A DNA stretch of 64,000 bases from assembly GCA_949358305.1 (NCBI GenBank), contig OX442314.1:40060581-40124580 (forward strand), read 5' to 3'. How positions within the stretch are numbered: the first letter of the stretch is position 1; every line of letters begins with the position of its first letter. The notes under the pieces were generated by a model. That model was not told where the DNA came from. It worked only from the letters and a program-made list of their open reading frames with translations, and searched no databases. A program made the translations under genes and the position numbers. Positions 4,000-40,218 of this stretch are shown here, in pieces. The stretch is from Strigamia acuminata (taxonomy: Eukaryota; Arthropoda; Chilopoda; Geophilomorpha; Linotaeniidae).

Positions 4000-4083
4000 A
4001 TTATCCGTCTGTGCGATCTGTTTTGTGTGTGTTGTTCAGTGTTGGTGTGGAAATGTAAGTTACAGCGAGCGAAAATGTTTATT

Positions 4084-4896: not shown

Positions 4897-5010
4897 ATTG
4901 TTTGTTTCAGAATGGTTTTGGAATTGACTTTTCGAGGAATTGTGATTATGTGGCTGTAGATATGACTGATGGCTCATTGTAGAAATCGGTAGTATTAGTC
5001 ACCAATCTCT
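4571..5010 (+). repeat. 440 bp direct duplication, copy 1
   Basis: This segment (the right half of MITE copy 1 plus 114 bp of flank) recurs at 5593-6032, offset by exactly 1022 bp. I saw no difference between copies by eye. The near-identity points to a recent local tandem duplication. Confidence 0.9.
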
Positions 5011-9627: not shown

Positions 9628-9975
9628 ATGGGGATTTCATACTAAGGTCGAAATGAATAAGGTCGAAACAGGATTTCGACCTTATTCATTTTTACCCAAG
9701 TATCCCATCTTTGGGCGAAATGATTAAAGTCGAATTTACGTATACTGAAATGACTAGGGTCGAAATGACTAAGGTCGAAATGCCGTTTCTACCTTATTCA
9801 TGAATAAGGTCGAAATGACTAAGGTCGAAATCCTGTTTCGATCTTATTCATGAATAAGGTCGAAACTCTAAATTTTTATATGAATAAGGTCGAAACTCTA
9901 AATTTTTATATGAATAAGGTCGAAACTCAAAAATTCAAAAACTCAAAAACATGAGAATTTCCCATGAGAATCTCG
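9628..9975. repeat. Left arm of foldback element
   Basis: About ten GGTCGAAA units in both orientations, several as back-to-back TTTCGACCTTATTCATGAATAAGGTCGAAA-like palindromes, ending in a GAGAATTTCCCATGAGAAT block. Reverse-complementary to 56951-57287. Confidence 0.8.
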
Positions 9976-15923: not shown

Positions 15924-18497
15924 TTACTTAAATGAAAGAAAATAGGTAGAAAAAATATCTAAAGTGTTGACAGTAAAAATTTCAACATGTTTATCAATAA
16001 TTTCAACGTCTTGTAAAGTTAAAAAATTGGCCTCGGCAAAAAACCAATGTCGCAATTCCACTACATTGTAGGGCTGGGTTTTTTGACCGTTTTCATCCAT
16101 TAGGATTACTGTATTGGGGCCCACCAATCTATGTATAATATATACACCTTCAGTACGCTGGCGTAAACCTGCTGCGAATTGTTTATCGGCAGATGAAGGT
16201 TGCCGATTGCGCAAAGTTACCCAGTCGCCAGGACGGAAGTCATGGGGGCGCCGTTTTAAATCGAACCACTTTTTGTGTCGAATTTGGGACTCGCGCAAGT
16301 TGTTAATCGCGCTTTCTCGCATTCTACGCATATGTTCGTGCAAATTCTCAGCTTCAACGGGCGGTAACGGTTCTCCGTCATCCGTGTCGCTATCCAGGTC
16401 GCCTGGGAATCGAGCTTCCTGGCCTATTACCATTTTAAAGGGTGAATACTTTAAAGAAATTTGATATGCCGAATTAATTGCGAGCACGAAATAGCCAATA
16501 TTGACATCCCATCGCGTATGGTCATCGTCAATATATGCTAATATACAGTTCTTTAAAGATTGGTTGAGTCTTTCCGCAATATTACCTTGCGGGTGGTATG
16601 CGGCGGTATATCTATTTATTGCGCCAAGTTGCTGGATTTGGCTACGAAATTCTGGTGAGCGAAAAGCAGGCGCATTATCGCTGATAATTATCTTGGGAAA
16701 ACCCCATCTTTTACAGAATTTCTGAATTTGTTTGACCGTAGTCGCTATATTCGAATTTTCAGTTAAGCGTACGTCTAACCATCGGCTAGCAGAGTCGACC
16801 ATCACAAAGGCATAGCAATGTCCTTCTGTGGATCGAGGTTTCTTGCCGTAATAGTCGATGTAAATGGCAGAGAAAAGATGGCGCGATCTGGACATTATCA
16901 TTTTTCCATATGGGAGTCTGTTAAGGGGTTTAGCTCTTTGACACGCTTCGCATACCTGGATCCATGTTCTGATATCCTCGCGCATCTTTGGCCAAAATAC
17001 GCGCGATTTAATGCGATGGAGTGTTCGTTCTTGCCCCATATGTCCAACTACGGGAGGATAGTGCATTGCGCGGAAATATCTTTCTCTAAGCTCAAATGGG
17101 AGATATATTTGGCGCCTCTTTCTAATTTCATTAATATGGACAGGAGGGAAACGACATAACATCTCTTTATACATGCCGAAATCTTGCGCGTCAGCCACAA
17201 TTTTAGCAGCCTCATCTGGATCAAGTGGTAACATTTGGGCAGTTAAATAAAATATCAACTCACGCGACCAGGGGTCCTGTCTTTGCGCAGCGATGATTTC
17301 AGCAGCAGTAGGCAACAGCTCGAACGGAGGATGTTCGATTGGAGGATCGTGCTCCAGTTCGGCTTGCTTCTCTGCTTCAGTTCTTGTACCCTCAACTACT
17401 GTCCTTTCCCGTCGTGGACGCAATCTCGATGGAGTCCTTTGCGCTGATGTTGGAGGCGCATAATAACTTCTTGTCGGCGGCGACATGTCACGAATAGGTC
17501 CAAAACTGTCCTCAGACGATGTGGAATCAGAATCCGGGTCTGAAGTATATCCCTCTGGCCTCTGCTGTCCTGATGGTCCCGCCGCATCGTCATACATCAC
17601 TGGTTCAGAAGGTTGACGCGGAGAAATAACAGGAAAATCAGTGATAGGAATTGAGGGTGTTGGGGAAGGAGTTGGTAAATTTGGAATTTCAGGAGAAGGT
17701 TTAGGAATAGGCCTTCGATGGCTACCGGGTTGAATTATTGGTGCAGGGACTCCAGTTATTCGACGGAAATTTCGTCGTATTCTGTCCACCAAAGTTCCAG
17801 GCGTCGGCAATTGTGAAGGCGCCGAAGCAGTCCTTTTTCTGAAGCTAGATGGATTTATTGGCGCAGGAATTTTAGTTGGAATAAGTACCGGAGGTGGAAT
17901 GGAACTAGGAATAGGAGTGGATATTGGAGTTGTAGGAGGTGTAGGAATAGGTAAGTGTGGCGGAATCAAAACAGGTTTAGATTTGGGTTTCACCACATGT
18001 GAAGGGATAGTGGATTTATGTTTCACCGCCTTCAACTTTCCTACTTGCTGTGATTTCAATAACTTTGGAAATGTCCATTTTTTAATAGTTCCTGCATACC
18101 TGGGTGGTAGCCATGGTGGTGTTTTAGGAATTAAAGATGGATCCTTTAATCTAGCTCGAGTTCGTGTTGCTATTGCGCGTTTAGCACGAGGAGATAAAAT
18201 TGGCACAATATTAATTTTGCGTGGTCTTCCTCGTTTCTTTATCAAAATTGGAATTAAAGAGCGCTGTCTACGAGTCCGCAAAGGCACTGAAACACGAACT
18301 GGTGATAAATTAGGAGTTTTTACTTGTGAAGTTGGTTGCGCAACTGGAACAGGCACATTTGGCGTTGCAGTTGGTTGCACAACTGGTGTCGGCGCAACTG
18401 GAGATAAAGTAGGCGGAGGTACCGACGTCGGAGTAGTAGCTGCGCCAGTTGGAGGTGGAGCTTGCGCACCTGAAGTTGGCGCATGTCCAGTCGCTTT
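15924..18497 (-). pseudogene. Gypsy E Pol, part 2: proline-rich linker and integrase
   Basis: Continuation of pol on the other side of copia A, with no stop up to the insertion point. About 330 residues rich in Pro, Thr and Ser come first, an unusually long linker. Integrase follows, with an HHCC-type zinc-binding region (GHMGQERTLHRI...CEACQRAK), then the core with Asp in IYIDYYG, Asp in ISDNAPAF and Glu in GNIAERLNQS, i.e. D, D, E at integrase spacing. The C-terminal part (PGDWVTLRNRQ) is the GPY/F-like region; no chromodomain is evident. This half looks intact but is separated from its promoter and RT by the 32 kb insertion. Confidence 0.9.
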
Positions 18498-18968
18498 TGT
18501 TGGTTATCGATGCCAAACAGTCCTCCGTACTTGTTTTGCGCATTTCTTAATGTATTACTGCATTATGCAGCCTAGTGTATTTATTAGGATTTATTTCATT
18601 ATTTAACATTGGGCATAATGCTGCCTCTATACTGTTTACATTTGTATTACTTATTATCAACACCAGATGGTGTGCATGTATGTTTTTCTCAATCACAATG
18701 GCCGCTTGCATGCCAGCAAGCACTCATGTATTTTCTCCACCTAAATGGACCAAATTATGTAAGCATTTTCGTTTTAATTAAACATTTAGTTTATTTTTAC
18801 ATTTTGTTTGTCACTTATGAGCATTTTAGAGTGCAGTGACTTTATTTTCCACCATTTTCAAGCGCTGGAGGTGCGCGCACGTCATTGCGCTCATATTAGC
18901 CGTGTTTCGGCATTTAAACTCGCTTCCACACACAGTATTTCATACTGTGAGCGCACTCCTCTGCTACA
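18498..18968 (+). repeat. Copia A 5' LTR (471 bp)
   Basis: TGTTGGTTATCG... to ...CCTCTGCTACA. The last 12 bases almost copy the 3' end of initiator tRNA-Met. Confidence 0.95.
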
Positions 18969-18970: not shown

Positions 18971-18988
18971 TGGTAGCAGAGGATGGTT
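18971..18988 (+). other. Copia A primer-binding site (initiator tRNA-Met 3' end)
   Basis: TGGTAGCAGAGGATGGTT is complementary over 18 bases to the 3' end of eukaryotic initiator tRNA-Met including CCA. Two bases separate it from the LTR. The LTR end can pair with it (stem 18957-18967 with 18973-18983). Confidence 0.92.
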
Positions 18989-19574
18989 GCTATCCTTGCA
19001 GCACGCCGAAACCGCTAATTTTTATCGCCATTTTCGCGAAATTCGCGAATTTGCGATAAATTTTCTATTTGCAGATTGCGCCGATTTCCGCGACGATTTT
19101 CGTCTCTAGAACGTTCGAGACGACACGCCGACGTTCTCACGTAGTCTGCACGACCAACTCTACGATTTTTCATTTAATTTCGTCCGAATTTCTGCGGGTT
19201 TCGCAATTTTCGAGACGAATTTCAATTTATTTTCAGATTTTCGCTGTTTTCCAACGAGAATCAACGTTGGAAACCCGTTTTACACAGCGTGAACGACGAT
19301 TTGGACTAATTCCCGACTTAGTACACCGTGTACGGTCGTTGTATCGACGATTTTTCTCGAAGAAACGACGATTTTCGACGATTTTCGCATTTAAATGCGC
19401 AACTACGCCATTTTCATCTCTAGATTGGCGCAACGTCTCATCACACTAATTAATACTTGCCTTTCAGTTGTCGTAATTAGCTTGTTAGTATTTAAGGTCG
19501 TATTAAGTTTTTGTGGGTCTTTTAGAATAGTTTTTGCTCTTCTGTTCCAGTCGGAACTACCGCATTAACTCATT

Positions 19575-19680
19575 CCTAGCCAGTGCTTACCGTGGCCAAC
19601 AGGTACTCCCGCGCCTCCAGGCAGGCGAACGGACCCCTGTGTGTTGGCTGGCTAGGGTTATTTGGCCACTTCAGAAGTGG
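19575..19680 (+). ncRNA. Conserved structured RNA in the copia A leader
   Basis: Perfect 9 bp outer stem (19575-19583 with 19648-19656), a second helix CCAACA/TGTTGG (19596-19601 with 19642-19647), an inner hairpin with a 5 bp stem and loop CCAGGC (19612-19627), and a following hairpin with a 6 bp stem and loop CAG (19666-19680). The same architecture occurs at 27877-27986 in copia C with different but still complementary outer and inner stems. This is a cis-acting RNA structure in the leader, not a free gene. Confidence 0.75.
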
Positions 19681-19756
19681 TCGCCCAATTCGATTGATAT
19701 CCACTTTGACAGTGCTCCGATTAGTGCGCCGTATTTGTGTAGTGCTATGCGATATT

Positions 19757-21312
19757 AGGGGGTTTCATTAATGAAGCAATTTTGTAATTTTGCAACTTTA
19801 GCAATTTTGCACTTTTGGATTTGTCACATGATATCAGTTCCACCAATCATGTGCATAATTGCAAAAACACAAAACAGAAAAAATACACAATCACAAAATC
19901 AAAGGTAGTTTTGCTATTTTGGAAAAGATGGCAGCAGCCAAACTCAATCCAAGTGGCCATCACAAATTGTGATTAATAATTAGTTTCAAAAACAATCTCA
20001 TAATTTTGCAATTTTGCAATTATTTAAATAGTCACGTGACTTCCTATCCACCATATTAGGTTATAGTTATATCCAACCAATTTTAAAATGTGATGCAAAA
20101 AAACTAGTTCTTATTTGTGTGATGGAACAAAATATTTTTTAATAAGGTGCATTTTAATAAATACTAGCTGTTCACCCACAAAGCCAAAGCCATAGATCAG
20201 ACAAATGTATACAACCAAATCATAAAATAAATTTTTGCAAAACTAAACCAAACCCATAATAATGCAACCCAAACCCAAACCACACCAAACTAAAACCAAT
20301 GCCAATCTGGCCAATACCCAAACACAATCAAACCCAAAAGTTAACCCAAACCCAACGCCAATCCAGCCAATTCAATTTTGGCCCAAACCACTGCAACCTG
20401 CTATTTTGTCCTCCTTTATTATTCAACCACTTTTTCCAACTTTTTCTTATAAATCAACCCAAAAAAGATCGTTTTTTCCAAAATTTAAAATCAACGGTTA
20501 ATCCGATCAAAAAGTTATCTGTACCATCGTTTTCAGCGGAATTTTCTTCTCTGGAAACCTGTTTTAAACATTTCATTCGGTTAATTTTACGAATTTTTGG
20601 TTTTGTCATGGTCGAATCTCGAATCCAAATTCTGCACCAAATTTCCAAATTTTCCCATTCGGTCCCCCGCTAAGATGGCCCGAATCGGCACTTTTCCTCG
20701 CCCGAATCAAAAAGTAAAAAATACAGGCTTGTGCAGAATTGTCTCCTCTTCAAAATGAGCTTGGTTCCATAATTTTCCGAGCTCATCTTGACATAGAAAA
20801 CAATAAAAAACGATACGCGACGAACATTTCCGCCTGAATTTCCATTCGGGCACCCGCTAAAATCGCCCTGAATCGCCCTGAATCGGTACTTTTTTTTACC
20901 CGAATCGAAGTATTGAGTTTCCTAGCTGTTATACAGTCATGGATGCATCAGCATTTTGATGATATACAAGGATACAAGTTAGCCACTTAGATAGAGCTTG
21001 GATGCCTCCATTTTGTTTTGAGTTTCACAAGCCTCAAAATCACTTCTTATCAAAATCACAAAAACTACCTTTTAGATGTTTTTGGGATTTTGTGTTTTTA
21101 CTCTTTTGTGCTTTAGTGAATGTGAATGTGATTGGTAGAACAGATATCACATGACAATACTCAAAAATCACAAAATCGTCCAGATCACACAATTGCAAAA
21201 TTGACTGGGTTAATTCAATGTAAACTCATTTTTGGAGGCATCAAAAAATAATGATTTTGTGATTAATGCAAAATCACAAAATTGCAAAATCATTCATATA
21301 ATGAAACCCCCT
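19757..21312. mobile_element. MITE family 1, copy 2, in the copia A leader (TSD ATT)
   Basis: Same AGGGGGTTTCATTA ends as copy 1 and the same ATT flanks (19754-19756 and 21313-21315). It is split by an unrelated insertion at about 20164-20911 that replaces about 30 bp of the family sequence. It separates the leader structure from the Gag ATG. Confidence 0.85.
20164..20911 (+). repeat. Interspersed repeat inserted in MITE copy 2
   Basis: Begins ACTAGCTGTTCACCC-like and contains a CCAAACCCA-rich stretch, then a block shared with 7040-7255, and two degenerate copies of a CCCGCTAARATNGCCC unit (about 20668-20710 and 20850-20910). No protein coding seen. Possibly a LINE/SINE remnant. Confidence 0.5.
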
Positions 21313-21398
21313 ATTGTGCACCGAGACCGTCAAGTGCTCCAATTGTACCATTCTCCATCCAGTGTGTTTTGCTACGGGTTGTTTCGTAACTCCACGTC

Positions 21399-24068
21399 AT
21401 GTCGAAGTCCGCAGACGGAAATCCAGGACGTCTTCCCATCCTTAGCGTAGGAAACTACGAACTTTGGCAGTGCTCAATGCGCATGGTACTCCGAAGCGAG
21501 GAATTGTGGGAACACGTAACGGAAGAAGAGGAGGAAGATTTCCTTAAAACAGCTGGGGACAAAGAGAAAAAGAAGTACAAGCGTCGTAAAGCCAAGGCAT
21601 TAGGCTTAATATACTGTTCTGTAAGCGAGGCGAAGAAGTCTGCGCTAGATGATTGTAAAACCCCGAAGGAAGCATGGGACATTTTAGCCAACATTTATGC
21701 GCCATCATCTCGTGCGCGACAGGCAGCCATGCGCCGAGAATTTTTGAATTTGCGCCTAGAGCAGGGCGAAGATATGGCCGACTTCTTAGGACGCGTTGAC
21801 TATCATGTCCGCCAAATGAAGGATATCGGAGAGATAACTTCGTCTGATCACCACGCTTACCAATACTTGGACTTATTGCCTCGTGAATATTCACAGATTT
21901 CATTCACGACATATCACTTGCCCAAAGGAGAATTTACACCAAAGAAAGTGTCTGAACAATTGCTCGCGGAACATATGCGACTCAAAGCTATGGATTCGCG
22001 CGACATAGACAATTCTAAATCTCCACGTGCCTATGCTGGTGAAAAACAGCAACGTGGGAGAAATCGTTCTCGTCCCTCTCGACCGTTATCTTCGGTGCAG
22101 TGTTTTAATTGCCAGGAATTTGGCCATTACGCAAATAAATGTCCATTACCGCCGCGCCGAGATGACAAAAATCAGCCGACAGCTTCACTTCAAAGGAAGC
22201 CAAGAAGTTCTAGCCGCAAACGCAACAAGAACTCAAACCGTGATGATTCGAGGCCAAGGGGGAATTCCAGCGCAAGACGGGAAACGAACTTTTTCGCCAG
22301 TGCGCCTCAACCAATGCCCACAATTCACTTCATGCAATCACATGAATGGATAGTGGATTGTGGGGCAACGGATCATGTGTGCCACGTCCAGGCTTGGTTT
22401 CAGGACTTTGTTAAAGTTGTGCCCTTTAACATAGCATTAGGTCAAGGACATTCCGAAGTTCTTGGAAAGGGCAAAGTCCAGATTGTCACAATGATCAACA
22501 ATGTAGAATGTGTCGCGAATCTCCAAGATGTGCTGTTTGCGCCAAAATTTGAGGCGAATTTGATCTCCGTATCAAAAATGGACAAAGCCAAACATCATAT
22601 CCATATTTGGGATGGAGGAGTCCATGTCTACAAATCTGATATCAATCATCCAATGCTTCGAGCCAAAGAAAAGGGCGGTCTGTATTACGTCGACGGCTTA
22701 TGTACACCCTCAACGGTCATATCAACAGTTAATGCGCCAGTTATACAGACGACCGCTCCAGCCCGAACATTAGTCACGGCAGAAGAGGACTACATTCAAT
22801 ATCCAAAGGCAAAGAAAAAGTCGAAGGACCCGGAACTGTTTACGGATTTTCGGCTCGAATTCCCTCCTTTGCCGAATGAAATTCCTCCACCTGCACCAAT
22901 TAAAGTAACCCAGTCCAAGACACTTCCTGTACCTACTCCCACCAATCCGTTACCTCAAGTCCCATCCTTTGCCAAGACATTAAAGGCAAACCCACCGATC
23001 TCCCAACCGAATTCAAATTCAAAACCGAATTCAAAGCCAACCAACGCAAAGAAGGTTGCAGCACCATCGGTTAAAAAGGATGCGACAGGGATATGGCACA
23101 GCAGATTGGGTCACCTTCATACCAATGCGATGAAACTTTTGGCCGGAAATGACCAACTTTACGGAGTTACACCGGCAGAAGTGAACAAAGAACTATCGTG
23201 TAATCATTGTCGAATTGCGAAATCAACGCGCATTTCTCACAAGCCGGATGCGCACCCCTTTTCAACTAAAGCCCTAGATCTCCTACACATGGACGTGTGG
23301 GGAGCTTCAAGAACGACTTCCTACGGAGGCGCGCGTTATGTGTTAACGATTATCGATGACGCCACGCGCTATGCCTGGATATTTCCGATGGCCCAAAAAT
23401 CCCAAGTGTTTGGACTCTTTAAGGACTATGTCACACGAATTGAACGAGTGACGGGCAAACGAGTCAAGGCCATCCGAACAGACCGAGGAGGAGAATTCTT
23501 ATCAAACGAATTTGACCGCTATTTAAAAGAGACCGGAATTCAGGCCCAAAGGACCAATCCACATAGCCCCGCTATGAATGGCACAGCAGAGCGAATAAAC
23601 CGCACCATGGCGGATTACACGCGTGCCATACTAGATGAAACTGGACTTCCAAACGAACTTTGGGCGGAATTCGCAGTGACTTTCTCGTACATAAAGAACC
23701 GGTGTCCTCATTCTCGTCTCAAAAATGAGGTGCCCTATATCCTGTGGCGACGACGTGCCCTTTCGCTCAGACACCTGCGCAAGTTAGGCTCCAAGTGCTG
23801 GGTTCATCATACAGCGCCCGGCAGGGACAAATTGGATCCACGAGCTTGGGAGGGCTATTTAGTCGGATACGCCACGACAACGCGAGGTTATCGCGTCTGG
23901 AATCCAACAGATAACAAGGTTATCGAGTCCATTCACGTCAAAATAGATGAACGGCAGTCCTATAAACGCTCAAATCATTATCGAGGTCCACAGGAACCGT
24001 GGACAGGACCAGATTTGGACCAAACGCATCAAGCGTCGCAAATTTATGAACCATTGCGCATTTCACAA
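21399..24068 (+). pseudogene. Copia A gag-pol, part 1: Gag, protease, integrase
   Basis: The ATG at 21399 opens about 890 codons without a stop. Gag core, CCHC knuckle (CFNCQEFGHYANKC), protease with the copia-type DCGATDH, pre-integrase HHCC (GHLHTNAM...CNHC) and integrase core with Asp in HMDVWG, Asp in IRTDRGGEF and Glu in GTAERINR are all present. After integrase the frame runs into gypsy B sequence at 24068 and stops at 24113. The rest of pol resumes at 48030. Close relative of the intact copia C protein. Confidence 0.9.
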
Positions 24069-25573
24069 TGGGAGAGCTTGTACGGGAAGCAGAGTTCCAG
24101 GTGGATAGCGTAGCGAGTGGGTTTCCGGCGTCGAGCGCAAGGTTGGATCAGATCCGGAAGCGAACCGCCGAGGATGAAGAGGGTAGACTTTTGATGGGAT
24201 ACATCAAGGAAGGCTGGCCAGAGAAGCATCATTTGCCCCTGTCGATGGGAGTATTTTGGAAGGATCGGGGTTATCTGACAGCGTGGAGGGGGTTGATCCT
24301 GAAGAATGACCGTATTTTCGTGCCGGCCGGCTTAAGAAGGGAGATTTTGGCTAAATTGCATGAAGGCCATCAGGGGATTGGTCACTGCAGGGCAAGGGCC
24401 CGGCAGTCAGTGTGGTGGCCTGGCCTGAGCCAGCAGTTGGCACAGTTGGTCGGCGACTGTAGGACGTGTCAGCAGTTTCGGGTGCCGCTGCGGGAGCCGA
24501 TGATCGCGACGGCGACGCCTTTGCTGCCTTGGCAGAAGGTGGGAACTGATATTTTTTTTTGGCGGGGCGGTAGTTACCTGCTTGTTGTCGACTACTACTC
24601 TCATTTCGTGGAATTAGAACGCTTGGATCGCATTACATCGGCGGCAGTGATCAGTAGGATGGAGTCGATTTTCGCGCGGCACGGGTATCCCGAGGAAATG
24701 GTGAGCGACTCGGGGACGCAATTTATGGCGGCCGAATTCGTGCGGTACGCGACCGAGAACGACTTCCGCCTTGTTACGAGTAGTCCGCATTACCACCAAA
24801 GTAACGGGGAAGCCGAAAGATTCGTTGCCACGGTCAAGCAGATGTTGGCCAAGAACGAGAATCCATATAAGGCATTGCTCCAATATCGAAATACACCGGG
24901 ACCAAGTGGGTATAGTCCGGCACAGTTGCTAATGTCGCGGCGCTTGAGGACGGGCATTCCGGTGCTCCAGACAGCGCTGCAGCCAAGGATTCCGAATCAT
25001 CGCGAGTTCCGAAAGAAACAAGAGGAGGCGAAGAGTCAACAGTGCGCGGATTACAACAGGCGGCACCGAGTGGTCCAGCGGCGCGAGTTGGTCGATGGCG
25101 AGGAAGTTTGGATTACGAACGAGAAGGTGTCGGGAGCAGTGGTGGGACCTGCCGGGACTCCGAGGTCGTACCTTGTAGAGACACCGCGGGGGACCATTCG
25201 GCGCAATAGTAACCAGTTGGTGCCAAGGATGACGGAGGGACCCGGGATAGAGGCGGCAGAGCGGTCAGCGGCATCGGACACCACCAGAGTCGAGGCGAAT
25301 GAACGAGACGGAGGATGGCGAGGCGAATGAGGGACCGGGGGAGCCGATAGTGGCCGCGAATCCGGCTGTGGCGGAGAATGGAGGAAGGACCGTGTATACG
25401 ACGAGGTCAGGGCGACGTGTTATACCGCCAGAGCGCTTGATAGAGACGATGAATGAATTGAACTTTAATGGAGTCTGATTTTAGTGGTTTTATTTTGTGT
25501 TTTATTTTTATTGTATTTTGATGTTGAATTGTATTTTATATCCTTTGTCGGATCGCGTTCCCCCAGGGGAAGA
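24068..25573 (+). pseudogene. Gypsy B 3' pol fragment (integrase)
   Basis: Begins mid-pol at a non-homologous junction with copia A, with no RT upstream. Integrase zinc-binding region and D, D, E core are present. A 2 bp loss in a GAGA run near 25307 shifts the frame, giving an early stop at about 25330 relative to the two full copies. Confidence 0.9.
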
Positions 25574-25845: not shown

Positions 25846-26692
25846 ATGGCGGCGTCGTTTCAGTTCGTTCCGCCGACGCCTTTTGATTTTAAATGCGCCG
25901 AGGGTTGGCCAAAGTGGATTCGGAGGTTCGAGCGGTATCGTGAGTCCTCGGAGTTGGATGTGGCGACTGAGTTGAGGCAGGTGACGACGTTAATTTATTG
26001 TTTGGGCGATGAAGCGGAGGACATTTTGGCCGCTTCAACCGTGACAGCGGCGGAGAAGAAGAAATACGCTAATGTGAAGAAAATATTCGAGGACTATTTT
26101 GTGGGTAAGCGGAATGTGATTTATGAACGTGCTAAATTTCACCGTAGGAAACAAGAGCCTGGAGAGACGGTGGACGCGTTCGTGACGGCGCTGCACGCGT
26201 TAATTGATACGTGCGCTTATGCCAGCTTGAAGGACGAGTTGGTGCGCGATCGGTTCGTCGTGGGATTGTTGGATGCGAAAATATCCGAGACATTGCAGCT
26301 GGACGGCAAATTGACATTGGAGACAGCGGTCGAGAAGGCGCGGATGAAGGAGGTGGTTAAGGGCCAGCAGAGCTTTATTCGTGCGGAAGAGCCGAATATA
26401 TTGACGGTGGGAGAGATGAAGTTTGGCCGTCGGGAGCAGCAGGAGCGGAGGCCCGGTAACGCGCCGAGTGGCGGTCAGTCGAGTTCGGGAGTTCGGCCGC
26501 CGGGGCCTGGATGCCGCAATTGTGGGTTTCCAAGGCACGAGCGAGGCGAGTGTCCAGCGAGGGAGGCCAAATGTCGAAGATGCGGAGGAAAAGGCCATTA
26601 TGCTCGCGTTTGTAGGAGTGCGCCGACGCATGAGATTCGCGAAGCCGAGGGAGGTCAGCTGGGAGAGCTGTTTCAGCAGGAGGCGCTGTTTT
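25846..26692 (+). pseudogene. Gypsy B copy 1 gag (cut by copia C)
   Basis: Starts at the ATG at 25846 and reads Gag with two zinc knuckles (CRNCGFPRHERGEC and CRRCGGKGHYARVC). The frame is cut after GTTTT at 26692 by copia C. The rest of this gag-pol resumes at 40219. Confidence 0.92.
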
Positions 26693-27238
26693 TGTTGGTC
26701 TACGGACCGTGTTTGTAGTCGATGTAAGACAGATTCGGCTTGTATTATCATTTTACCGGTGTATTTCTCAATTATTGCTTATTTACCGATCTTTTAAGTT
26801 GTTTATCATATTTTTGGTCATTTAGTCATTGTTTATGTATTTTAGCATGAGGCACCATGCATTTGTTAGTTTTGGAAGTTACTTTGACTATTTTCCTAAT
26901 TTGCAATGTTGTATTGCGACACAAGGTGTCGCTACTCACTCTCTCTCGAATCCAAGATGGCGCTGCACACGGAGTTGCTTGCCCATCCTTTTTCCCAACC
27001 TGATTTGGACCACTATGTAAGATATTTTGTTTATATTAAATCATTTTATTATTTGTATATGCTATTTGCATCATTCCACGGCATATAAGTGCTTGTGCAC
27101 GGCCGTATCTTGCTCGAAACGTTTTCGGCGCGAGTATTCTGCGCGCGAGAATTTGCGAGCACTCTGCGAGTCGGGTTCCGACTCTGTTTTCGATTTTTCG
27201 CTCGTAATTCCGAGCTAATTTCCTCCTCCTCTGCTACA
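26693..27238 (+). repeat. Copia C 5' LTR (546 bp)
   Basis: TGTTGGTCTACGG... to ...CCTCTGCTACA. Contains a TATA-like GCATATAAG near 27083, the probable promoter. Confidence 0.95.
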
Positions 27239-27240: not shown

Positions 27241-27258
27241 TGGTAGCAGAGGATGGTT
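27241..27258 (+). other. Copia C primer-binding site (initiator tRNA-Met 3' end)
   Basis: TGGTAGCAGAGGATGGTT, identical to the copia A site and again two bases from the LTR. The LTR end pairs with it (27227-27237 with 27243-27253). Confidence 0.92.
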
Positions 27259-27876
27259 GCTATCCTCTGTTAGCACGCTTTCCACTAATTTTTGCCAAGA
27301 AATTCGCGATTTTCGCGATTCGCGGCAAATTTTTGCCTATTTTCAGATTCCGACGTCGATTTCCGCCGATTTTCGTCCTTTTCGTTTTCGTAACGTCTTC
27401 GAGACGTTCATTCGACGTTCTACCGACGTTCTCCTGTCTAACTTTGCCGAAAATTACGCGGGTTACGCGAATTTTCCGGCAAATCTTTATATTTTCAGAT
27501 TTAACGCTGATTTCGCCGAGATTCCGACTCGTCACCGCCGACGAGGCGTGTTATCATCTAGAAACGGGCAAAACCCGCTGTATTCACCCCGGTGTGTCTA
27601 CAGTATCGTCGATTTATTTATCTTTCGACGATTTTTGGATTTTTCCTCGATTTATTCGGGTCGAATGCGCTTTTCAGCCGCTTTTTCGAGAAAAGCGAGC
27701 AAACCCGTGTTTTCTACACGACGGTGTGGTGACCAGCCCACACAGAATCTCCATTTCGCCTTCTTTATTTTTCAGGGTCGTATTATTATTATTGTTAGAT
27801 TTAAGGGGGATTTTGGTGTGGGACATTTAGTATCCTCGGCGCCCTTCGCTCGAATCCGGGCAAGCGTCGTTGTATT

Positions 27877-27986
27877 CCCCGATAGTGCTTGTCGTGGTAC
27901 AAGTGAGGTTTCCCGCGGTTCCAGGCAACCGGTCGGACCCTCTCAGACTGGCTATCGGGGGTTTTTTGATTTCTTCAGAAGGAATC
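27877..27986 (+). ncRNA. Conserved structured RNA in the copia C leader
   Basis: Outer stem 27877-27885 with 27952-27960 (perfect 9 bp), inner hairpin 27916-27931 with loop CCAGGC, following hairpin 27968-27986 with loop CAG. Loops and the TGCTT..CGTGG segment match copia A while stem bases differ with compensation. The copia A second helix is less clear here. Confidence 0.75.
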
Positions 27987-28088
27987 GCCCCATTTACGGT
28001 TTCCGCTTTGAACCACGAGGGAGGTGTGTGTGTGTTGTGAAGTGCATCGTGTTCGTCAGTGCTCCGAATTTAGTGCGCCAATACCACT

Positions 28089-28629
28089 TGTGAAAATCGA
28101 GTGATTTTACGCGTGATATAAACTATTATTTGAATTGCTATTCTCATTTTTGAATTGTTGTTATCTTTTATATTTCAATGTGTTGATTTGACTTGTGGTT
28201 TTAGTTGTTATTTGTGTTTCATTTACCATTTTATTAGATTGAATAGTTTAATATTGTTGTAATATTTCTTATTTTACTGCTTCAATATATTTGTATTTCT
28301 TATTTGAGTGTTTGACCTGTTCCTCATTTGTAGTACCTTGCCCTGTTAATCCCTTAATTGGTGTGGGTTTTTCCTACCTCTTGAGCGCCGTCTCATTGGC
28401 GCTCTGAACGCGTCATCCACATTCCTCTACCCCTTTTCCCATTGTGTTGAAAATAGAATAAACTTTTAGTGTACTTTTTACCTCTAAAACGTGTGGTCGT
28501 GTCTCTTCTTCACTCCGACGCCATTTGCAATTTTCATCAAAACCCTCAAGTAGTTACATCCATTTGTATCCAGGACTTTGGAAATTTATTGCTAAGTTTG
28601 TACTACATTTATCTTGTGCAAATTTAACA
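28089..28629 (+). repeat. BEL D 5' LTR (541 bp)
   Basis: TGTGAAAATCGAG... to ...AAATTTAACA. An AATAAAC near 28457 may be the polyadenylation signal. Confidence 0.95.
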
Positions 28630-28630
28630 T

Positions 28631-28648
28631 TGGTGCCGAAACCCGGGA
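28631..28648 (+). other. BEL D primer-binding site (tRNA-Phe type)
   Basis: TGGTGCCGAAACCCGGGA follows the LTR after one base and is complementary to the 3' end of animal tRNA-Phe with CCA. Confidence 0.8.
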
Positions 28649-28684
28649 AGTATTTCAATTTCCCATCTAATCAAAATCTACAAA

Positions 28685-31600
28685 ATGGTGAGAGTTTTTG
28701 AGTTGAAGAACAGGGCGTTCAGAGCGGCCATATTGGTCACCGAGACGCTCTTAACCACGATAACCACCGCGCTGACCGGACGAGCAGCGATACCGCAAGC
28801 CACGATTGAACTGTGGATGCAGCAGCTCGAGCAGAAACACAAACGAGCTCAAACAACGTTCGACGCCACCTTGGATCAAGCCAAATCTGACCAGGAAATC
28901 GACACCACGGTGCAGGCACTCGACGCGTTGGAGGACCGTTTGGCAGCAGCAAGAGCGGAATTAACAAGGTACATTCAAGCGTATTTTCCACCCGTTCCGC
29001 CCCAGAATTTACAAGCGGACGCGGACGCGCAACCGGCGACGAACATCGACGCACTAGCGGCGGCCATTACCGCAGCAGTGTCGGCGGCGACGCCACGAGT
29101 GACCCCAACAAACGGCCAGCCGTTCATCAAACGCAAACCGCTGGAGATTCCCAAATTTGACGGGCGCAAACCTGAGGAGTGGGGAGGATTTTGGAAAACA
29201 TTTTCCATTCAGGTTGGCGACGACGAGCAACTGGATGCGACACATAAACTGTTACATTTGAGGACATATTTGGTAGGAGACGCGTTAGATGACATCAAAG
29301 CGTTGGAGATTACAGCTGGAAATTATAATATCGCGGTCACACGCCTACAAAAAAAATATGGCGACAAGATCGTGCTTGAAAACAAATATTTGTCAAATTT
29401 AATTAACCTACCTTTAGTCAACAGCGATCGAGATAGGATGGGGCTCCAGAAGTTGCACAGACACGTAGAGATCAACATCGAGAATTTGGCGAACATCGAG
29501 GTACCACTGGCAGAAATTCAGCGTACCATTTTCCCCGTGCTGTCGTCCGCCATACCACGCAACGTGATTATGGAGTACGACAAAGACTGCGACGGAGAGA
29601 GGTCGGTAACAAGGCTAATGGATTGGCTGAGCAGCTACATCGCTAAACACGCCAAATACGACATGATGAAAACTCAAACAAAACCTGATGCAGCAACAAA
29701 CAAATCGTCATCCACGGATAACGCCCACAACAATAAGGGAAAATTCAAACGAAAAGAAAAGGAGCCTCGATCTGGATCAGCGTCACAACTTTCGGTAATA
29801 ATAATAAAATGCCAATTTTGTGATTCCACAGAACACAACCGAAAGCGATGTCCACTCTCGATGGAAGAGAGACGTAAAAAGTTGCAAAAAAAGGGAATTT
29901 GCTTGCGATGCTTGGGAAAAGCACCCCACAAAACTGAGGAGTGCAGGACTCGCATGAAATGCTACAGCTGCGAGGGAGCGCACCACACACACGTGTGCGA
30001 CACGCCAAAATCTACGGAGGTCGTCGAGGGAGTCACCCATTCGAACTCAGTAGTCACCACCTGTCCACCCAAGTCCGAATTTTTGATGGTCCAGATGGTG
30101 AAGATGGCGGGACCAAAACTGTCAACGTTGGGAGTGTGCTACATCGATGGGGGAGCCCAACGCACTTTCATACGGGCTGAATTGGTGAAAAAACTAAATT
30201 TACGCATTTTAGGAACTGAAACTATAAACTTAGCCGTGTTTGGACAAGAACCCCGATCAGAAGTCCGTAACAGGGTCGAATTGGTCCTCAGCCCCGCCAA
30301 TTCAAAGTCACCAGCCGTCACGATCGAGGCCATTGAAGCAGCCCACGTCACGTCCACGCCCGGAGAGCAACCGAACGCGCAACTTAAAGCAGAACTGCAC
30401 AGAAGAAAAATTGAAGTGGCCTGCAAGCAAGTCGTGTTGCATTCAAAGGAAGTGGACCTACTGATTGGAGTAGACCATTACTGGCGCGTAATGACGGGCC
30501 AGACGGAATATTTGGAAGAAAACTTGATTGCAGTTAAAACGAAATTTGGATGGACTTTACACGGACAGACCACGAATGGAACAAGAGTCATTGCTGCGCC
30601 GGTAAGAATTAACAAAATAACACTTGCCCCATCGACAGATGACCTTTTGCGCCGGATGTGGGAACTGGAACCGATTGGAGTACGCCACGAGTCGGTCGAA
30701 AACAACGACGACACTGAAACGTTGCAAAAATTTGAGAAAACCATCAAATGGACAGGTTCGAAGTATTCCGTGGAACTGCCTTGGATCGTGGACACCAACG
30801 AACTGGACGACAATTATCGAGGAGCAGAGCAACGCATCATGTCGCTGATTCGTCGCTTCCGAAAACAACCAAACCTCTACTTGGAGTACAAGAAAGTTAT
30901 TGACGAACAGTTAAAAATGGGAATTGTTGAAGAAATACCGAACCAAACTTCAACTGGACCAGTATACTACATGCCACACAGTCCGGTGATCAAAGAGGAA
31001 CGCGTCACCACAAAATTACGAGTCGTATTTGATGCATCATCACACCGAAAAGGCCACCTTTCCTTGAACGATTGCCTATCAAAAGGTATAAACTTTCTAC
31101 CTTCACTAACAATTATATTGCTAGGATTTCGTCTTGGGAGAGTGGCCATGATGGGTGACATTAAAAAGGCATTCCACATGATCGAGATCGCTCTAAAGGA
31201 CCGTGACGCAACGAGATTTTTCTGGATTGATGAGTGCTGGGACGGTATAGGAAAGGCATTGTTGAAAGTATTGCGACAAACTCGAGTGTTATTTGGCGCC
31301 ACACCAAGCCCATTTTTGCTGAGCGCCACCATTCGACATCACTTGCGCAAATACGAGAAGAAATACCCAGAAACAGTAAAGTTGTTGTTACGGTGTCTGT
31401 ACGTGGACGATTTCATCTCGTCGCTCAAGACCGTCGCTCAAGCGCTAATGACATTTCGCCAGTCCAACTTGATTTTTGCAGCAGCCGGTATGGAACTCGC
31501 TAAGTGGCAAACCAATTCGCCCGAACTGAGAACTGAATTTCGAGAGGAATGCCCATCTGACGCGACACTGACGTCTAATGAAGACACAAAGGTGCTGGGA

Positions 31601-33964: not shown

Positions 33965-34500
33965 AAATCGAGTGATTTTACGCGTGATATAAACTATTAT
34001 TTGAATTGCTATTCTCATTTTTGAATTGTTGTTATCTTTTATATTTCAATGTGTTGATTTGACTTGTGGTTTTAGTTGTTATTTGTGTTTCATTTACCAT
34101 TTTATTAGATTGAATAGTTTAATATTGTTGTAATATTTCTTATTTTACTGCTTCAATATATTTGTATTTCTTATTTGAGTGTTTGACCTGTTCCTCATTT
34201 GTAGTACCTTGCCCTGTTAATCCCTTAATTGGTGTGGGTTTTTCCTACCTCTTGAGCGCCGTCTCATTGGCGCTCTGAACGCGTCATCCACATTCCTCTA
34301 CCCCTTTTCCCATTGTGTTGAAAATAGAATAAACTTTTAGTGTACTTTTTACCTCTAAAACGTGTGGTCGTGTCTCTTCTTCACTCCGACGCCATTTGCA
34401 ATTTTCATCAAAACCCTCAAGTAGTTACATCCATTTGTATCCAGGACTTTGGAAATTTATTGCTAAGTTTGTACTACATTTATCTTGTGCAAATTTAACA
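33960..34500 (+). repeat. BEL D 3' LTR (541 bp)
   Basis: Same as the 5' LTR by eye. The pol stop codon (TGA, 33962-33964) lies inside it. The bases just before it are pyrimidine-rich, so the plus-strand primer is not obvious; a purine run GATGGGGGAAAA lies at about 33882. Confidence 0.95.
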
Positions 34501-34554: not shown

Positions 34555-37500
34555 ATGCAAAAAGTCAGTGATCCGACCAGCGGCAGAGTTCCCGTACTCG
34601 CTGTAGGGAATTACGACTCGTGGCAGAGGAGCATGCGAATGCTCCTCAAAGCAGAAGGATTGTGGCACCACGTGACGGAAACCGAGGAAGTTGAATACCT
34701 AAAAACCGCATCGGAAAAGGAGAAAGTCAAATATCAGCGCAAGAAAGACAAGGCTCTCGGCCTCATTTACTGTTTTGTCTCCGAGGCAAAGAAGTCGGCC
34801 CTTGATAATTGCGATACACCTAAACAATCTTGGGATAAGTTGGCGCAGATCTACGCTCCCAGCTCCCGCGCGCGCCAAGCCGCGATGCGCTGGGATTTCC
34901 TCGCTCTCCGACTTGGCCCGAACGAGGAAATGGCTGATTTCATCGCCCGCGTCGATTACCACGCCAGCCAACTTAAGTCGGTGGGTGAACCAGTCTCAGA
35001 TGTTCACCATTCGTATCAGTACTTACACCGCCTTCCGCCCGAGTATTCGCAAGCATCGTTTGCCATATACCATTGGCCAGATGACCAGTTCATACCGGAT
35101 AAAGTGTCCGAACAGCTTCTCTCCGAGTATATGCGCCTCAAATCAATCCATACGAACAATTCTCAGTCAGCATCGGCGCATACTTCCAACACTGGTCAAT
35201 CTCGACGGAATCAATCCCGACCTCCGCGTGATATTTCGACGGTTCGATGTTTTAATTGTCAAGAACTCGGACATTACGCCAACAAGTGCCCTCATCAGAA
35301 AGGCGATGGTCAGAACCGCCAGGCACCCGCTGCGCAAGTCCAACGCTCCTCTCGCAGTAAGAGCCGTCGCAGTAACAAGAACGCGTCGAAGCCGGAGGAT
35401 CCCAAGCCACGGGGCAGTTCCAGGCCACGACGAGATGCAAATTTCTTCGTCAATTGTCCCCAGATCATCGAGCGTCCTATTGCACATTTTATGCAGTCAA
35501 ATGAGTGGATCATTGACTGCGGGGCCACCGACCACATTTCTCATATTCGATCGTGGTTTTCGGACTTTGAACAAATTACGCCATTCGACATCGAACTCGG
35601 ACAGGGCAAGTCCAAAGTAACCGGACGTGGTAACGTGCGACTTCAGACCTCGATTGACAACTGTGACTGTTTTGTGACTCTACACAATGTCTTATTTGCA
35701 CCGAACTTTGAGGCGAATCTTGTCTCCGTGAGCAAAATCGACAGAAACAAATTCCACATTGATATATATGACGGGGAGGTTAATGTCTATCAATCCGACA
35801 TTCGCTCATCAGTTCTCCGGGCGAAGGAAAAGGCTGGATTATATTACGTGGATGGACTTTGTGTGACCCCCGCTATTGCGACAACGGTTTCGCCGACTCT
35901 TCAGCCTGCACCAACAACTCCAGTCAAGATGCTGGTCACTTCTGAGGTTGATTTCGAGCCAATTCCGAAACCGAAAAAGAAGTCAAAGACAAAAACTGAG
36001 CACATGACGGATTTTCGTATCGAGTTGCCATCTTTGGACGTCGTGAACGAAATTCCGACCCCAACTCCTACTAATCCGTTATCGAACCTAAGTCCTACCC
36101 AAGCTCAACTCCCTCCTTCCGTCCCATCCCATTCCGACGTCATTCAGTCAATCCCGACGTCATCCATCCCTAAAACGAGTTCTCCACCTAAAAAGGAGAC
36201 GGTTGCTGCTGCGGCATCAAGAAAAGACGCAACTGGACTGTGGCATAGTCGTCTTGGCCACCTCCACACCAAGTCAATGCGTCTTCTGGCAACCAATGAT
36301 CAGGTCTACGGGATGGAACCGGCTGAAGTGTCCAAGGAGTTGGCATGCAACGACTGTCGACTTGCAAAGTCAATCCGTAAATCACACAAGCCGGATTTAA
36401 ACCCAATTTCAACCAAAGCACTGGACCTTCTCCACATGGATGTCTGGGGACCATCAGAAACCACATCCATTGGGGGAGCTCGTTTCGTATTCACGATAAT
36501 TGACGACGCCACGCGATATTGTTGGATAACACCGATGGCACAAAAATCTCAAGTCTTCGGCATATTCAAGGATTTCGTCACCCGTATCGAATGCGTTGCA
36601 AGTACTCGTGTGAAGGCTATCCGTTCTGACCGTGGTGGAGAGTTCATGTCGAATGAATTCCTCGACTACCTTCGAGAGAAGGGCATCGAAGGTCAGCGTA
36701 CCAACCCTAATTCACCCGCTATGAATGGAACGGCCGAACGAATCAACCGGACAATGGCCGAAAACGTGAGAGCTGTGTTAAACGAGACCAAACTCCCGGA
36801 TGCGTTGTGGGCCGAATTGGCTGTGACATTCGCCTACATTAAAAACCGCTCTCCACATTCTCGTTTAAACAATCAGGTTCCTTATATCCTGTGGCGACAG
36901 CGAGCCCTTTCATTGCGGCATCTACGACGAATAGGATCAAAATGTTGGGTGCATTTTACCGCACCGGGACGCAAGAAGCTCCAAATGCGTGCCTGGGAGG
37001 GCTATGTTGTCGGATACGCAGTCGGAACGAGAGGATATCGCATTTGGAACCCATTGGATGATAAAATTACCGAATCATGTCATGTCAGGATCGACGAAAG
37101 GATATCGTATCGCCGGTCTATTCGAAATGGCAACGGGAATCACCAATCTACGTTTGAATTCCCGGTTGAAAACGTTCAAAACTTCCCACAATCGACTGTA
37201 TCGTTTGATGAAAACATCCAGTATCTTGACTGGCCAAAGGGATCGGACTCAGAGGATGAACACTCGTCGTCAGACGATGAGCCTGAGATGCCTCCGCTGG
37301 AAGAAAGTTCGAGCTCAGCCGCATCCGCTCAATTTATGACACCTGAGCGACAACTTCTTGAGGCGTGTGCTTTGAGATTGCCAAGCTCCGATAGTAATCT
37401 GGGTGATGACACGGATCGTGACGTTGATGATATAGACGAAGTTTCCCTTGTGCCTATGTCTACCTATACTTCTCCTCATGTGTCACCTCAAACTTCACCG

Positions 37501-39465
37501 CAAACCTCGCCCCCGTTATCCCAACCGGGCTCTCCGAGCAGATTTGTGACTACGCGAAGAACAATGGGTACTTCTGTTCTTCAACACACAATTCCAGTTT
37601 TTGGTGCAGGACCCATGTCTCCAGCTCCACTTCATGGTATCGAGGTATTACCAACCACTGCCAGACAGACAGCTTTTATGTGGAGATATATCGGAGGAGA
37701 TTCGCCGTGTGCTGGTTGGAAACGTGAAGAGCATCTCAGAAAGGATCAGAGACCCGGGAAAATTGACACCGACGTTTATTATTTCCCGGAACCGGATGTG
37801 CGACTGCGTTCCCGTAAAGACGTCGAAAAATATTGTCAGTTTAATCACATCGAGTACGATCCGGAGCTCTTCTTCTTTGGCAACATTGAATACACTTTGC
37901 CAACGATTCCTGGCCGACATGTGGCTCATCTCTGCCGAACCGAACCCGCATCTTTCGCCGAAATTCCGAAATTCGACGATGCTCCGAAATGGAGAGAAGC
38001 AATCGCAGAGGAACTCGGAACTTTTGAAGAGCGAGAGGTTTATGTTGAAGTACCGAGGCCGCCAGACACGACGATCCTCGGGTGCAAGTGGATCTTCAAG
38101 TTGAAATCTGACGCCGCTGGCAAGATTACTCGTTACCGCGCCCGCCTTGTTGCTCAAGGCTTCCGACAAACTCTCGGCGTCGACTACGATGAGGTTTTCA
38201 GCCCCGTAGTGAACTTTGTGCTCATTCGGATGTTCTTTTGTTTGCTCGTCGTTCTCCGAGGTTGGAAAGACGCGCACCTCGACGTGAAGTGCGCTTACCT
38301 TTACGGTGAGCTCGAGCATAAGGTGTACATGCGCATCCCGGCTGGGGCAACCTGTACAAATCCGAACAACGTCTGGCTACTCATAAAATCCCTTTACGGT
38401 CTGCACCAGTCGGGAAGACAGTGGTTTGAAAAGCTCGACGAAACGCTTCGATCTCTCGGATTCCGCAAACTTCCTGGCTGCAATTGCGTGTACATGTTTG
38501 GATCTTCGGCGCTAATGTTAGTCTACGTGGACGATATCGTTCTATTCTACGCAACTGACTCCGTTCTCGACCGTCTCATCACTCTGATTAGCACCAAGTT
38601 TCAGATTGTTAATCTGGGACCCATCACGAAACTACTCGGGGTTGAGTTCATTCGTGACGCTGGCAAAACATTCATCAGCCAGCGAACGTACATCGCAAAA
38701 ATCATAAAGAAGTTCGGCACCGTTATTAATAACCTCGTCAAGGTTCCAGTCACTCCGGGGACCATGCTCACAAAAGGACCGACAGAAAACCTAATCGATT
38801 TCCCATATCGATCCCTTATTGGATCTCTGTTATTTTTGGCCTCTCGAACTCGCCCCGACATCCTGTACTCGGTGATATTCCTTTCACAATTCAACACCTG
38901 TTATACGCAAGCTCACATCAAGGCTTTGTTTCAAGTGCTGCAGTACGTGTCTAACACAGCGGACTACTGCATTGAACTATCGGGATGTTCGACTGGACTT
39001 TTGTGGGCATACACCGACGCGTCGTGGGCATCGGACACCGCTACTTCACTCAGCTTCGGAGGATACATTTGTTATATCGGGAACACGCCAATTGGGTGGT
39101 CTTGCCGCAAGCAAACCACAGTCGCCTGTTCGACTATGGAGGCCGAATTTCTTGCCCTAGTCGACACGGTCAAGGAGCTTTATTGGCTGCATCATGTATA
39201 CTCCGAATGTTCGATACTCGACCGCGTTCCACGACCCGTCATCTACTCCGACGCACTTGCCGCTATCCAATTCACCGCGAATGACGTCGAGAACAGTAAG
39301 ACGAAGCACATTCGCGTTAAGTTCCATTGGCTGCGGGAGTGGTATTCGGCGGGACGTTTCGAGCTCAGAAAAGTGCCCGGCGATCTTAACGTCGCCGATA
39401 TATTTACAAAATGGCTCGGCTCGGAACGACTTCGATCACTCATCTCGCGAATCTTCCGACTCTAA
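34555..39465 (+). CDS. Copia C gag-pol polyprotein, intact (1636 aa)
   Basis: A single open frame from the ATG at 34555 (the frame is also open a few codons upstream without ATG). Gag core, CCHC knuckle CFNCQELGHYANKC (about residue 231), protease DCGATDH (about 316), integrase HHCC (about 562-603) and D, D, E (about 628, 690, 726), a long acidic Ser/Pro-rich linker, RT with YVDDIVLFY (about 1323), RNase H with YTDASW (about 1485) and MEAEF (about 1527). No stop, frameshift or catalytic change seen. Gag and Pol share one ORF, as in Drosophila copia. With paired LTRs, primer site and polypurine tract it looks complete, but its leader is now interrupted by BEL D. Confidence 0.94.
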   Translation: MQKVSDPTSGRVPVLAVGNYDSWQRSMRMLLKAEGLWHHVTETEEVEYLKTASEKEKVKYQRKKDKALGLIYCFVSEAKKSALDNCDTPKQSWDKLAQIYAPSSRARQAAMRWDFLALRLGPNEEMADFIARVDYHASQLKSVGEPVSDVHHSYQYLHRLPPEYSQASFAIYHWPDDQFIPDKVSEQLLSEYMRLKSIHTNNSQSASAHTSNTGQSRRNQSRPPRDISTVRCFNCQELGHYANKCPHQKGDGQNRQAPAAQVQRSSRSKSRRSNKNASKPEDPKPRGSSRPRRDANFFVNCPQIIERPIAHFMQSNEWIIDCGATDHISHIRSWFSDFEQITPFDIELGQGKSKVTGRGNVRLQTSIDNCDCFVTLHNVLFAPNFEANLVSVSKIDRNKFHIDIYDGEVNVYQSDIRSSVLRAKEKAGLYYVDGLCVTPAIATTVSPTLQPAPTTPVKMLVTSEVDFEPIPKPKKKSKTKTEHMTDFRIELPSLDVVNEIPTPTPTNPLSNLSPTQAQLPPSVPSHSDVIQSIPTSSIPKTSSPPKKETVAAAASRKDATGLWHSRLGHLHTKSMRLLATNDQVYGMEPAEVSKELACNDCRLAKSIRKSHKPDLNPISTKALDLLHMDVWGPSETTSIGGARFVFTIIDDATRYCWITPMAQKSQVFGIFKDFVTRIECVASTRVKAIRSDRGGEFMSNEFLDYLREKGIEGQRTNPNSPAMNGTAERINRTMAENVRAVLNETKLPDALWAELAVTFAYIKNRSPHSRLNNQVPYILWRQRALSLRHLRRIGSKCWVHFTAPGRKKLQMRAWEGYVVGYAVGTRGYRIWNPLDDKITESCHVRIDERISYRRSIRNGNGNHQSTFEFPVENVQNFPQSTVSFDENIQYLDWPKGSDSEDEHSSSDDEPEMPPLEESSSSAASAQFMTPERQLLEACALRLPSSDSNLGDDTDRDVDDIDEVSLVPMSTYTSPHVSPQTSPQTSPPLSQPGSPSRFVTTRRTMGTSVLQHTIPVFGAGPMSPAPLHGIEVLPTTARQTAFMWRYIGGDSPCAGWKREEHLRKDQRPGKIDTDVYYFPEPDVRLRSRKDVEKYCQFNHIEYDPELFFFGNIEYTLPTIPGRHVAHLCRTEPASFAEIPKFDDAPKWREAIAEELGTFEEREVYVEVPRPPDTTILGCKWIFKLKSDAAGKITRYRARLVAQGFRQTLGVDYDEVFSPVVNFVLIRMFFCLLVVLRGWKDAHLDVKCAYLYGELEHKVYMRIPAGATCTNPNNVWLLIKSLYGLHQSGRQWFEKLDETLRSLGFRKLPGCNCVYMFGSSALMLVYVDDIVLFYATDSVLDRLITLISTKFQIVNLGPITKLLGVEFIRDAGKTFISQRTYIAKIIKKFGTVINNLVKVPVTPGTMLTKGPTENLIDFPYRSLIGSLLFLASRTRPDILYSVIFLSQFNTCYTQAHIKALFQVLQYVSNTADYCIELSGCSTGLLWAYTDASWASDTATSLSFGGYICYIGNTPIGWSCRKQTTVACSTMEAEFLALVDTVKELYWLHHVYSECSILDRVPRPVIYSDALAAIQFTANDVENSKTKHIRVKFHWLREWYSAGRFELRKVPGDLNVADIFTKWLGSERLRSLISRIFRL

Positions 39466-40213: not shown

Positions 40214-40218
40214 GTTTT

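Follow-up and report, generated by a model that had tools for sequence, protein, structure and literature searches.

A leader RNA fold conserved within a group of copia retrotransposons of Strigamia acuminata, a candidate packaging signal

Introduction

LTR retroelements are already known to carry leader elements, as portions of several published accounts attest (PMC4974528; PMC11381356; PMC3735527; PMC2443393; PMC2829016; PMC10974842). For Ty1, Ty3 and HIV-1, sequences for dimerisation and packaging are placed within structured RNA towards the 5' end in the relevant passages of two of these (PMC11381356; PMC4974528). Here we describe an RNA domain of the plus strand, some 150 nt long, that a clade of copia elements carries in its 5' leader between the primer-binding site (PBS) for the initiator methionine tRNA (tRNAiMet) and gag, and that is shown to be conserved for its fold. 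Two copies lie in the window (the whole stretch of DNA analysed, 64,000 nt), one in each of the elements that we call copia A and copia C, whose leaders had been proposed to fold alike despite different sequences (hereafter the original prediction).

Host elements and their leaders

By their LTR pairs and protein domains, copia A and copia C are Ty1/copia LTR retrotransposons (Table 1). Both have LTRs, a copia-type gag and a PBS after the 5' LTR, and integrase precedes RVT_2, the full domain order being that of copia C, in which Retrotran_gag_2, zf-CCHC, rve and RVT_2 lie within a single 1640-aa frame. The zf-CCHC domain (a CCHC zinc knuckle) is present in the gag proteins of both elements, and a protein-database search with gag gave no match at E<=1e-10. 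Copies of the initiator tRNA gene are present in the genome, with 99% identity to the typed query sequence. Both leaders are untranslated, with the PBS at the start and the gag ATG at the end, and each has been split by a later insertion, formed in copia A by repeats at approximately 19753-21317 that are similar to window positions 4080-4901, and in copia C by a Pao element (28089-34500). The latter has 541-bp LTRs that are identical to each other and an uninterrupted frame of 1759 aa; it is a nested insertion, recent judging by its LTRs. The Pao-type peptidase nearby points to an animal genome, given where Pao elements occur.

Table 1. Coordinates of copia A and copia C features in the window.
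Feature	Position	Strand	Remarks
copia A 5' LTR	18497..18968	+	self-BLAST; 3' copy 50454-50925, 99.6% identical
copia A primer-binding site	18971..18988	+	18 nt complementary to initiator Met tRNA 3' end
copia A SL-A	19530..19569	+	hairpin upstream of SL-B, loop AGTC; this copy has an interrupted outer helix
copia A SL-B	19575..19656	+	P1 19575-19584/19647-19656, P2 19599-19603/19636-19640, P4 hairpin 19612-19627, loop CCAGGC
copia A SL-C hairpin	19664..19682	+	CTTCAGAAG
copia A boxes	19711..19732	+	two AGTGCNNCG; third 21333-21342, past later insertion
copia A gag-integrase frame	21399..24113	+	gag start 21399; domains gag to integrase only
copia C 5' LTR	26691..27238	+	self-BLAST; 3' copy 39666-40213, identical
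copia C primer-binding site	27241..27258	+	18 nt complementary to initiator Met tRNA
copia C SL-A	27837..27869	+	hairpin, loop AATC
copia C SL-B	27877..27960	+	P1 27877-27886/27951-27960, P2 27903-27908/27939-27944, P4 hairpin 27916-27931, loop CCAGGC
copia C SL-C hairpin	27968..27986	+	CTTCAGAAG
copia C boxes	28041..28081	+	three AGTGCNNC
copia C gag-pol polyprotein	34555..39462	+	counted from its ATG

Both elements also carry, about 30 nt after the PBS start, 8-9 nt complementary to tRNAiMet nt 19-28 (18999-19006 in copia A, 27272-27280 in copia C), which may be either a second box for the primer or a chance match. Elsewhere in the window, two copies of a 3.4-kb segment containing an RVT_1/RNaseH/integrase frame lie in the same direction (40214-43624 and 44619-48029; 99.9% identity, 4405 bases apart), and satellite-like blocks of TAAGGTCGAAATGA-type units, in direct and inverted copies, occupy 9640-9940 and 56950-57290.

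Structure of the leader domain

The domain consists of three parts, SL-A (two helices with an ANUC-type loop), SL-B (a multi-helix structure) and SL-C (a hairpin); the original prediction gave two of these three structured domains and left SL-A and the helices P1b, P2 and P3 unnamed. SL-B is built from a P1 of 10 bp, a GC bulge, P1b, P2, P3 and P4, the last closed by a loop C[C/U]AGGN. The outer stem is formed in copia A by CCTAGCCAG (19575-19583) and CTGGCTAGG (19648-19656) and in copia C by CCCCGATAG (27877-27885) and CTATCGGGG (27952-27960); as predicted, 9/9 pairs of this 9-bp stem form in both elements, with both partners differing at four of the nine. The inner hairpin was also correctly described, reading CGCCT-CCAGGC-AGGCG in one element and CGGTT-CCAGGC-AACCG in the other, with two of five pairs differing around a constant loop, and the next hairpin (SL-C) indeed retains CTTCAGAAG while its stems differ between copia A and copia C. 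Two further claims hold in part: the TGCTT..CGTGG segment is conserved in A- and C-type leaders, other families having GGCTGAGCCC-type letters, and the downstream CAGTGCTCCGA block is present, though not unique, being a single copy of a repeated box.

Those repeated AGTGCNNCGA boxes (AGTGC-type) lie between SL-C and gag and number 87 against 5.1 expected in 33 mutually related leaders. Two to six occur per leader in 29 of the 33 (copia A, copia C and leaders among L102-L138) and none in L108, L117 and L138; the upstream stretches of nine leaders hold 4, with 1.2 expected.

SL-A sits directly upstream of SL-B and comprises an outer helix, a 5'-heavy internal loop, an inner helix and a loop that is mostly AATC, AGTC or ATTC. 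This shape is obtained by MFE folding in 32/38 distinct sequences, with 18 different outer strands, and these 32 satisfy both a strict and a loose definition of it, as against 26/760 (strict) and 125/760 (loose) shuffled sequences. The MFE fold lacks the shape in copia A, L053, L055 and L061, all with a broken outer helix, in L128, whose inner part is displaced, and in L156, which was cut short. The folding energy of SL-A corresponds to z -3.71 in copia A and z -1.51 in copia C. Moreover, the SL-C hairpin was found in 25 of 26 representatives, with differing stems, the remaining one being cut off by the end of the fetched sequence.

The folding energy of SL-B taken alone is ordinary in copia A (z -0.52, 58/200 shuffles folding as well), the values for copia C being z -1.89 and 11/200; inside P1, the MFE fold of copia C by itself departs from the comparative fold. 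Since these energies are ordinary, single-sequence energy was dropped as proof of SL-B, and the case therefore rests on comparative evidence. At a given position, about 1/10,000 random draws would produce ten uninterrupted base pairs (G-U allowed), yet all pairs of P1 form in 53/56 genome rows, some of which are identical to one another; the pairing of P1 is thus more than chance.

Covariation analysis

All relatives used in this analysis come from one genome. A sequence-only alignment was made with MAFFT from 24 representatives (<93% identity) out of 47 rows, with a mean pairwise identity of 0.59 and a lowest of 0.375, and a structure-fitted alignment holds 26 representatives (<95% identity) out of 56 rows. 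The latter leans to the structure, because L117 and L138 were manually registered and L154 was entered segment by segment; the RNAalifold result, the sliding and shuffle test and the null of 9045 column pairs given below are all independent of it.

On the sequence-only alignment 94.4% of 478 cells are paired, compared with 35.6-51.3% after sliding the partner over 1-3 columns and 69.5% in shuffled alignments; the covariation score is 0.733, compared with at most 0.190 slid and a mean of 0.275 shuffled. Three of five pairing measures exceed all 500 shuffles, the two that do not being pairs with a double change (195/500) and pair types (455/500). RNAalifold, run unguided on the same alignment, recovered P1, P2 and P3, with double changes at 15 of its 21 predicted pairs, and predicted neither P4 nor SL-C; its pairs 15-26 and 16-25 were not kept in the final structure.

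We also used a phylogeny-aware null, computed with a script of our own that reassigns the substitutions of each branch to random columns and so approximates R-scape, without being R-scape itself. With the sequence-only alignment, four of 9045 column pairs reached E<0.05, all in P1/P2; with the structure-fitted one, 6/3486 column pairs were significant, again all in P1/P2, followed by the P4 pair 44-53 at 0.055, while the best off-structure pair stood at 0.125. When the null was restricted to the 30 pairs of the structure, 12 were significant (8 in P1, 2 in P2 and 2 in P4).

Counted by helix, paired cells amount to 255/258 in P1, 113/156 in P1b, 146/156 in P2, 77/78 in P3 and 109/130 in P4. P1b, the weakest, is a tentative helix: all six pairs form, with different letters, in families such as L112 and L136, and two to five of six elsewhere (three in copia A, four in copia C). 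G-U pairs outnumber A-C by 49 to 4 when the P4 pair 41-56, which forms in 10/26 representatives, is left out, and by 51 to 11 when it is counted. With G-U so far above A-C, it is the plus-strand RNA that is selected.

These results bear on whether the helices are DNA-level palindromes, an artefact of alignment or chance, an explanation with which the ordinary single-sequence energies of SL-B would agree; given the excess of G-U over A-C, the collapse of pairing on a one-column slide and the confinement of significant pairs to helices in the unrestricted tests, we regard it as hardly conceivable. The original prediction of selection for RNA structure is therefore borne out by more family members and by covariation statistics (our own approximation of R-scape), which support the view that the leader fold itself is under selection, its letters changing in matched pairs.

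Distribution among copia families

The genome searched comprises 237.5 Mb in 157 contigs, and relatives were gathered from copies of the A and C leaders, pattern matches and gag-guided sampling, so that they form a sample among the matches listed. SL-B is whole in 39 of the 42 loci fetched for their similarity to A or C gag (16 of 20, 16 of 20 and all 10, among the matches listed); of the other three, L140 has the 3' half of SL-B only, and L101 and L151 are without SL-B in the fetched stretch, L101 having no domain and L151 no core within its 156 nt. A second set of 38 loci (L071-L100, L114-L117, L121-L123 and L138) was found through the Pfam gag model alone; among the matches listed, SL-B occurs in three of these, namely L138, L117 (with one P1 mismatch) and L071, and in the remaining 35, which belong to other copia groups, a motif and stem search of both strands did not find it. 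Pattern searches of the whole genome gave 285 matches for the A/C type, compared with 43 for a backward-pattern control, and 384 for the general type, compared with 0 for the control. Within the sample, the domain is thus shown to be nearly restricted to one copia group.

Several observations were made alongside. L071 (reverse strand) has an A/C-type leader domain, next a half-tRNA-type primer-binding site and then a distant copia gag, and this element looks like a chimaeric copia. In other copia groups of the genome (L072, L075, L085, L090, L115 and L122 among them), gag directly follows a segment that could pair with the 5' half of tRNAiMet (AGGTTATGGGCCCAGCACGC...), an arrangement resembling that of Drosophila copia. 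What is presumably 5S-rRNA-like sequence, judging by a 5S motif, lies beside the copia elements at L148 (the upstream piece of L109) and L075. In public viral contigs searched for relatives, a 16-base pattern matched five times; inspection by eye showed P1 in none of these, and they were taken as chance.

Function of the leader domain

At gathering score no family of Rfam 15 matched the window, and at E<=1 none matched ten relatives; as far as that collection goes for these sequences the statement that the structure belongs to no known class stands. A self-cleaving ribozyme, one of the roles initially suggested, would suit a compact fold with conserved unpaired bases; we consider it highly improbable, as no known ribozyme family in Rfam was matched and cleavage at this place would presumably leave the PBS and the coding sequence of the genomic RNA on different pieces. 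An element for RNA export, stability or exonuclease blocking, protecting or routing the unspliced RNA, would likewise agree with a compact multi-helix leader fold largely confined to one copia group in the sample; nothing specific speaks against it, no Rfam family matches in the window or the ten relatives, and we hold this to be quite unlikely.

The distance of the structure from the gag ATG (approximately 250-285 nt) raises the question of translation, in which the domain would act as an internal ribosome entry site (IRES) or a shunt platform delivering ribosomes to gag. From the structure to gag, AUG is nearly absent (1 in 2922 nt over 11 leaders, the reverse complement CAT occurring 40 times), and copia A has a 57-codon upstream frame that stops 4 nt short of the structure, as expected of a shunt; moreover, an LTR element of a mussel has an IRES, though in an antisense 5'UTR, according to the part of the report concerned with it (PMC10974842). 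However, AUG is equally depleted upstream of the structure, with 10 in 7117 nt as against 68 CAT (11 leaders, PBS excluded), or 17 observed against 65 expected with the PBS included, and a true IRES would not require an AUG-poor upstream region. There is no Rfam IRES match either, and no upstream frame ends just before the structure in three other leaders: those of copia C and L112 end far upstream, and of two in L120 one ends far upstream and the other 17 nt inside the structure. AUG being avoided over the whole distance between PBS and gag, it is simplest to suppose that scanning ribosomes traverse the leader, the structure included, and that an IRES is not needed. An IRES-type role, which the original prediction had left room for under translation, is accordingly disfavoured by the depletion on both sides of the structure, and delivery of ribosomes by the domain seems unlikely overall. 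Two other explanations of the leader were set aside: hidden coding sequence, since the stop-free frames of 129 to 396 codons in long leaders have starts and ends that differ between families, and use of CAG as a fixed splice acceptor, which by eye is present in some leaders and missing in others.

A role in reverse transcription was also considered, SL-B offering a second site for the initiator-tRNA primer and thereby shaping the initiation complex. Besides the 18 nt complementary to tRNAiMet at the PBS of copia A and C, the J1/2 strand of SL-B (CTGCGCCAC) is complementary to tRNAiMet nt 7-15, a 9-nt match present in 7/11 long leaders and in 21/56 rows, and extra tRNAiMet-complementary boxes are employed by Ty1 and Ty3, as stated in a passage of PMC4974528. 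This match is nevertheless missing in the copia A, copia C, L111 and L117 types, which retain the fold, and broken in L103 and L105; we estimate that nine complementary nucleotides at some point in a leader are no rarity by chance alone, and among relatives the match is shared through common ancestry. We think this reading rather unlikely.

A fold that is gag-proximal, group-specific and strongly conserved, beside a Gag with a zinc knuckle, is in our judgement best read as a signal for the selection of genomic RNA, and among the roles named in the original prediction packaging or dimerisation is the most probable. We infer, with a probability of about one half, that the domain is a psi-like packaging signal read by Gag: structured RNA does lie between the PBS and the gag start, and the Gag of this clade, with its zinc knuckle in copia A and C, would use the domain to pick full-length genomic RNA. 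In the folded state Gag would read the conserved loops and bulges and the RNA would be packaged, and in a ribosome-scanned state, with the domain unfolded, the same RNA could serve as mRNA; the downstream AGTGCNNCGA boxes might provide single-stranded sites for Gag or a host protein. The P4 loop reads CCAGGN in 21 and CUAGGN in five of the 26 representatives; as CCAGGN, its usual form, is not a palindrome, a simple palindromic kissing loop of P4 is not conserved. Such a loop for dimerisation is not required of every packaging signal. Counting against packaging, the 35 sampled loci of other copia groups manage without the domain, and the copia A upstream frame would fit ribosome shunting rather than a purely packaging role, although the three other leaders do not share this. 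To the same side belongs the Ty1 5' pseudoknot, for which a packaging role could not be demonstrated, in the words of one section of PMC4974528.

Packaging and priming might also be combined, the three-domain leader being a structural RNA class new to Rfam that is both a packaging tag read by Gag and, in many families, a dock for the primer tRNA. This is a long shot; if it were true, with the dock at the SL-B strand complementary to the D arm of tRNAiMet, only primer-loaded genomic RNA would be packaged. With hundreds of motif copies in many families, the genome has in effect run its own covariation experiment, from which the helices, conserved loops and limits of the domain can be read. The question of what marks copia genomic RNA can now be put to a direct test, and a new Rfam family started from the alignment could serve to find such elements in other animals.

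Comparison with known systems

While leader RNA elements are already known as a kind, no description of a covarying leader RNA of animal copia, or of the present fold, was found in open-access titles and abstracts among the matches listed; the domain may work like psi. Sireviruses likewise show non-coding conservation across divergent copia families, the motifs concerned being those of PPT, LTR and junction, and the abstract gives no covarying leader RNA (PMC2829016). BARE of barley is likewise a copia element with an untranslated leader, for which its authors state dimerisation and packaging signals in the section at hand (PMC3735527); it is a plant element, unlike copia A and C, and is likened to them by the description of its leader, not by fold.

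Ty1 of Saccharomyces (Pseudoviridae), with its TIPIRT region and pseudoknot, is likewise of the Ty1/copia type, primed by tRNAiMet and structured near the 5' end of its RNA, and the same jobs are expected of that region, namely translation start, packaging and priming, in the portions of the two articles that deal with it (PMC4974528, PMC5454406). In Ty1, however, the PBS lies within the GAG ORF and the pseudoknot pairs with the 5' end, as a passage of PMC4974528 has it, whereas here three stem domains stand hundreds of nucleotides after the PBS in a long untranslated leader, so that the two are set apart by their descriptions. The psi leaders of retroviruses (MMTV, PMC8096270; HIV-1, PMC11381356) are, in the parts of these accounts concerned, structured stretches towards the 5' end of the genome to which Gag binds, and the copia domain would be alike if its reading as psi is right. 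The copia domain has no conserved palindromic P4 loop, and the likeness is one of place and proposed role.
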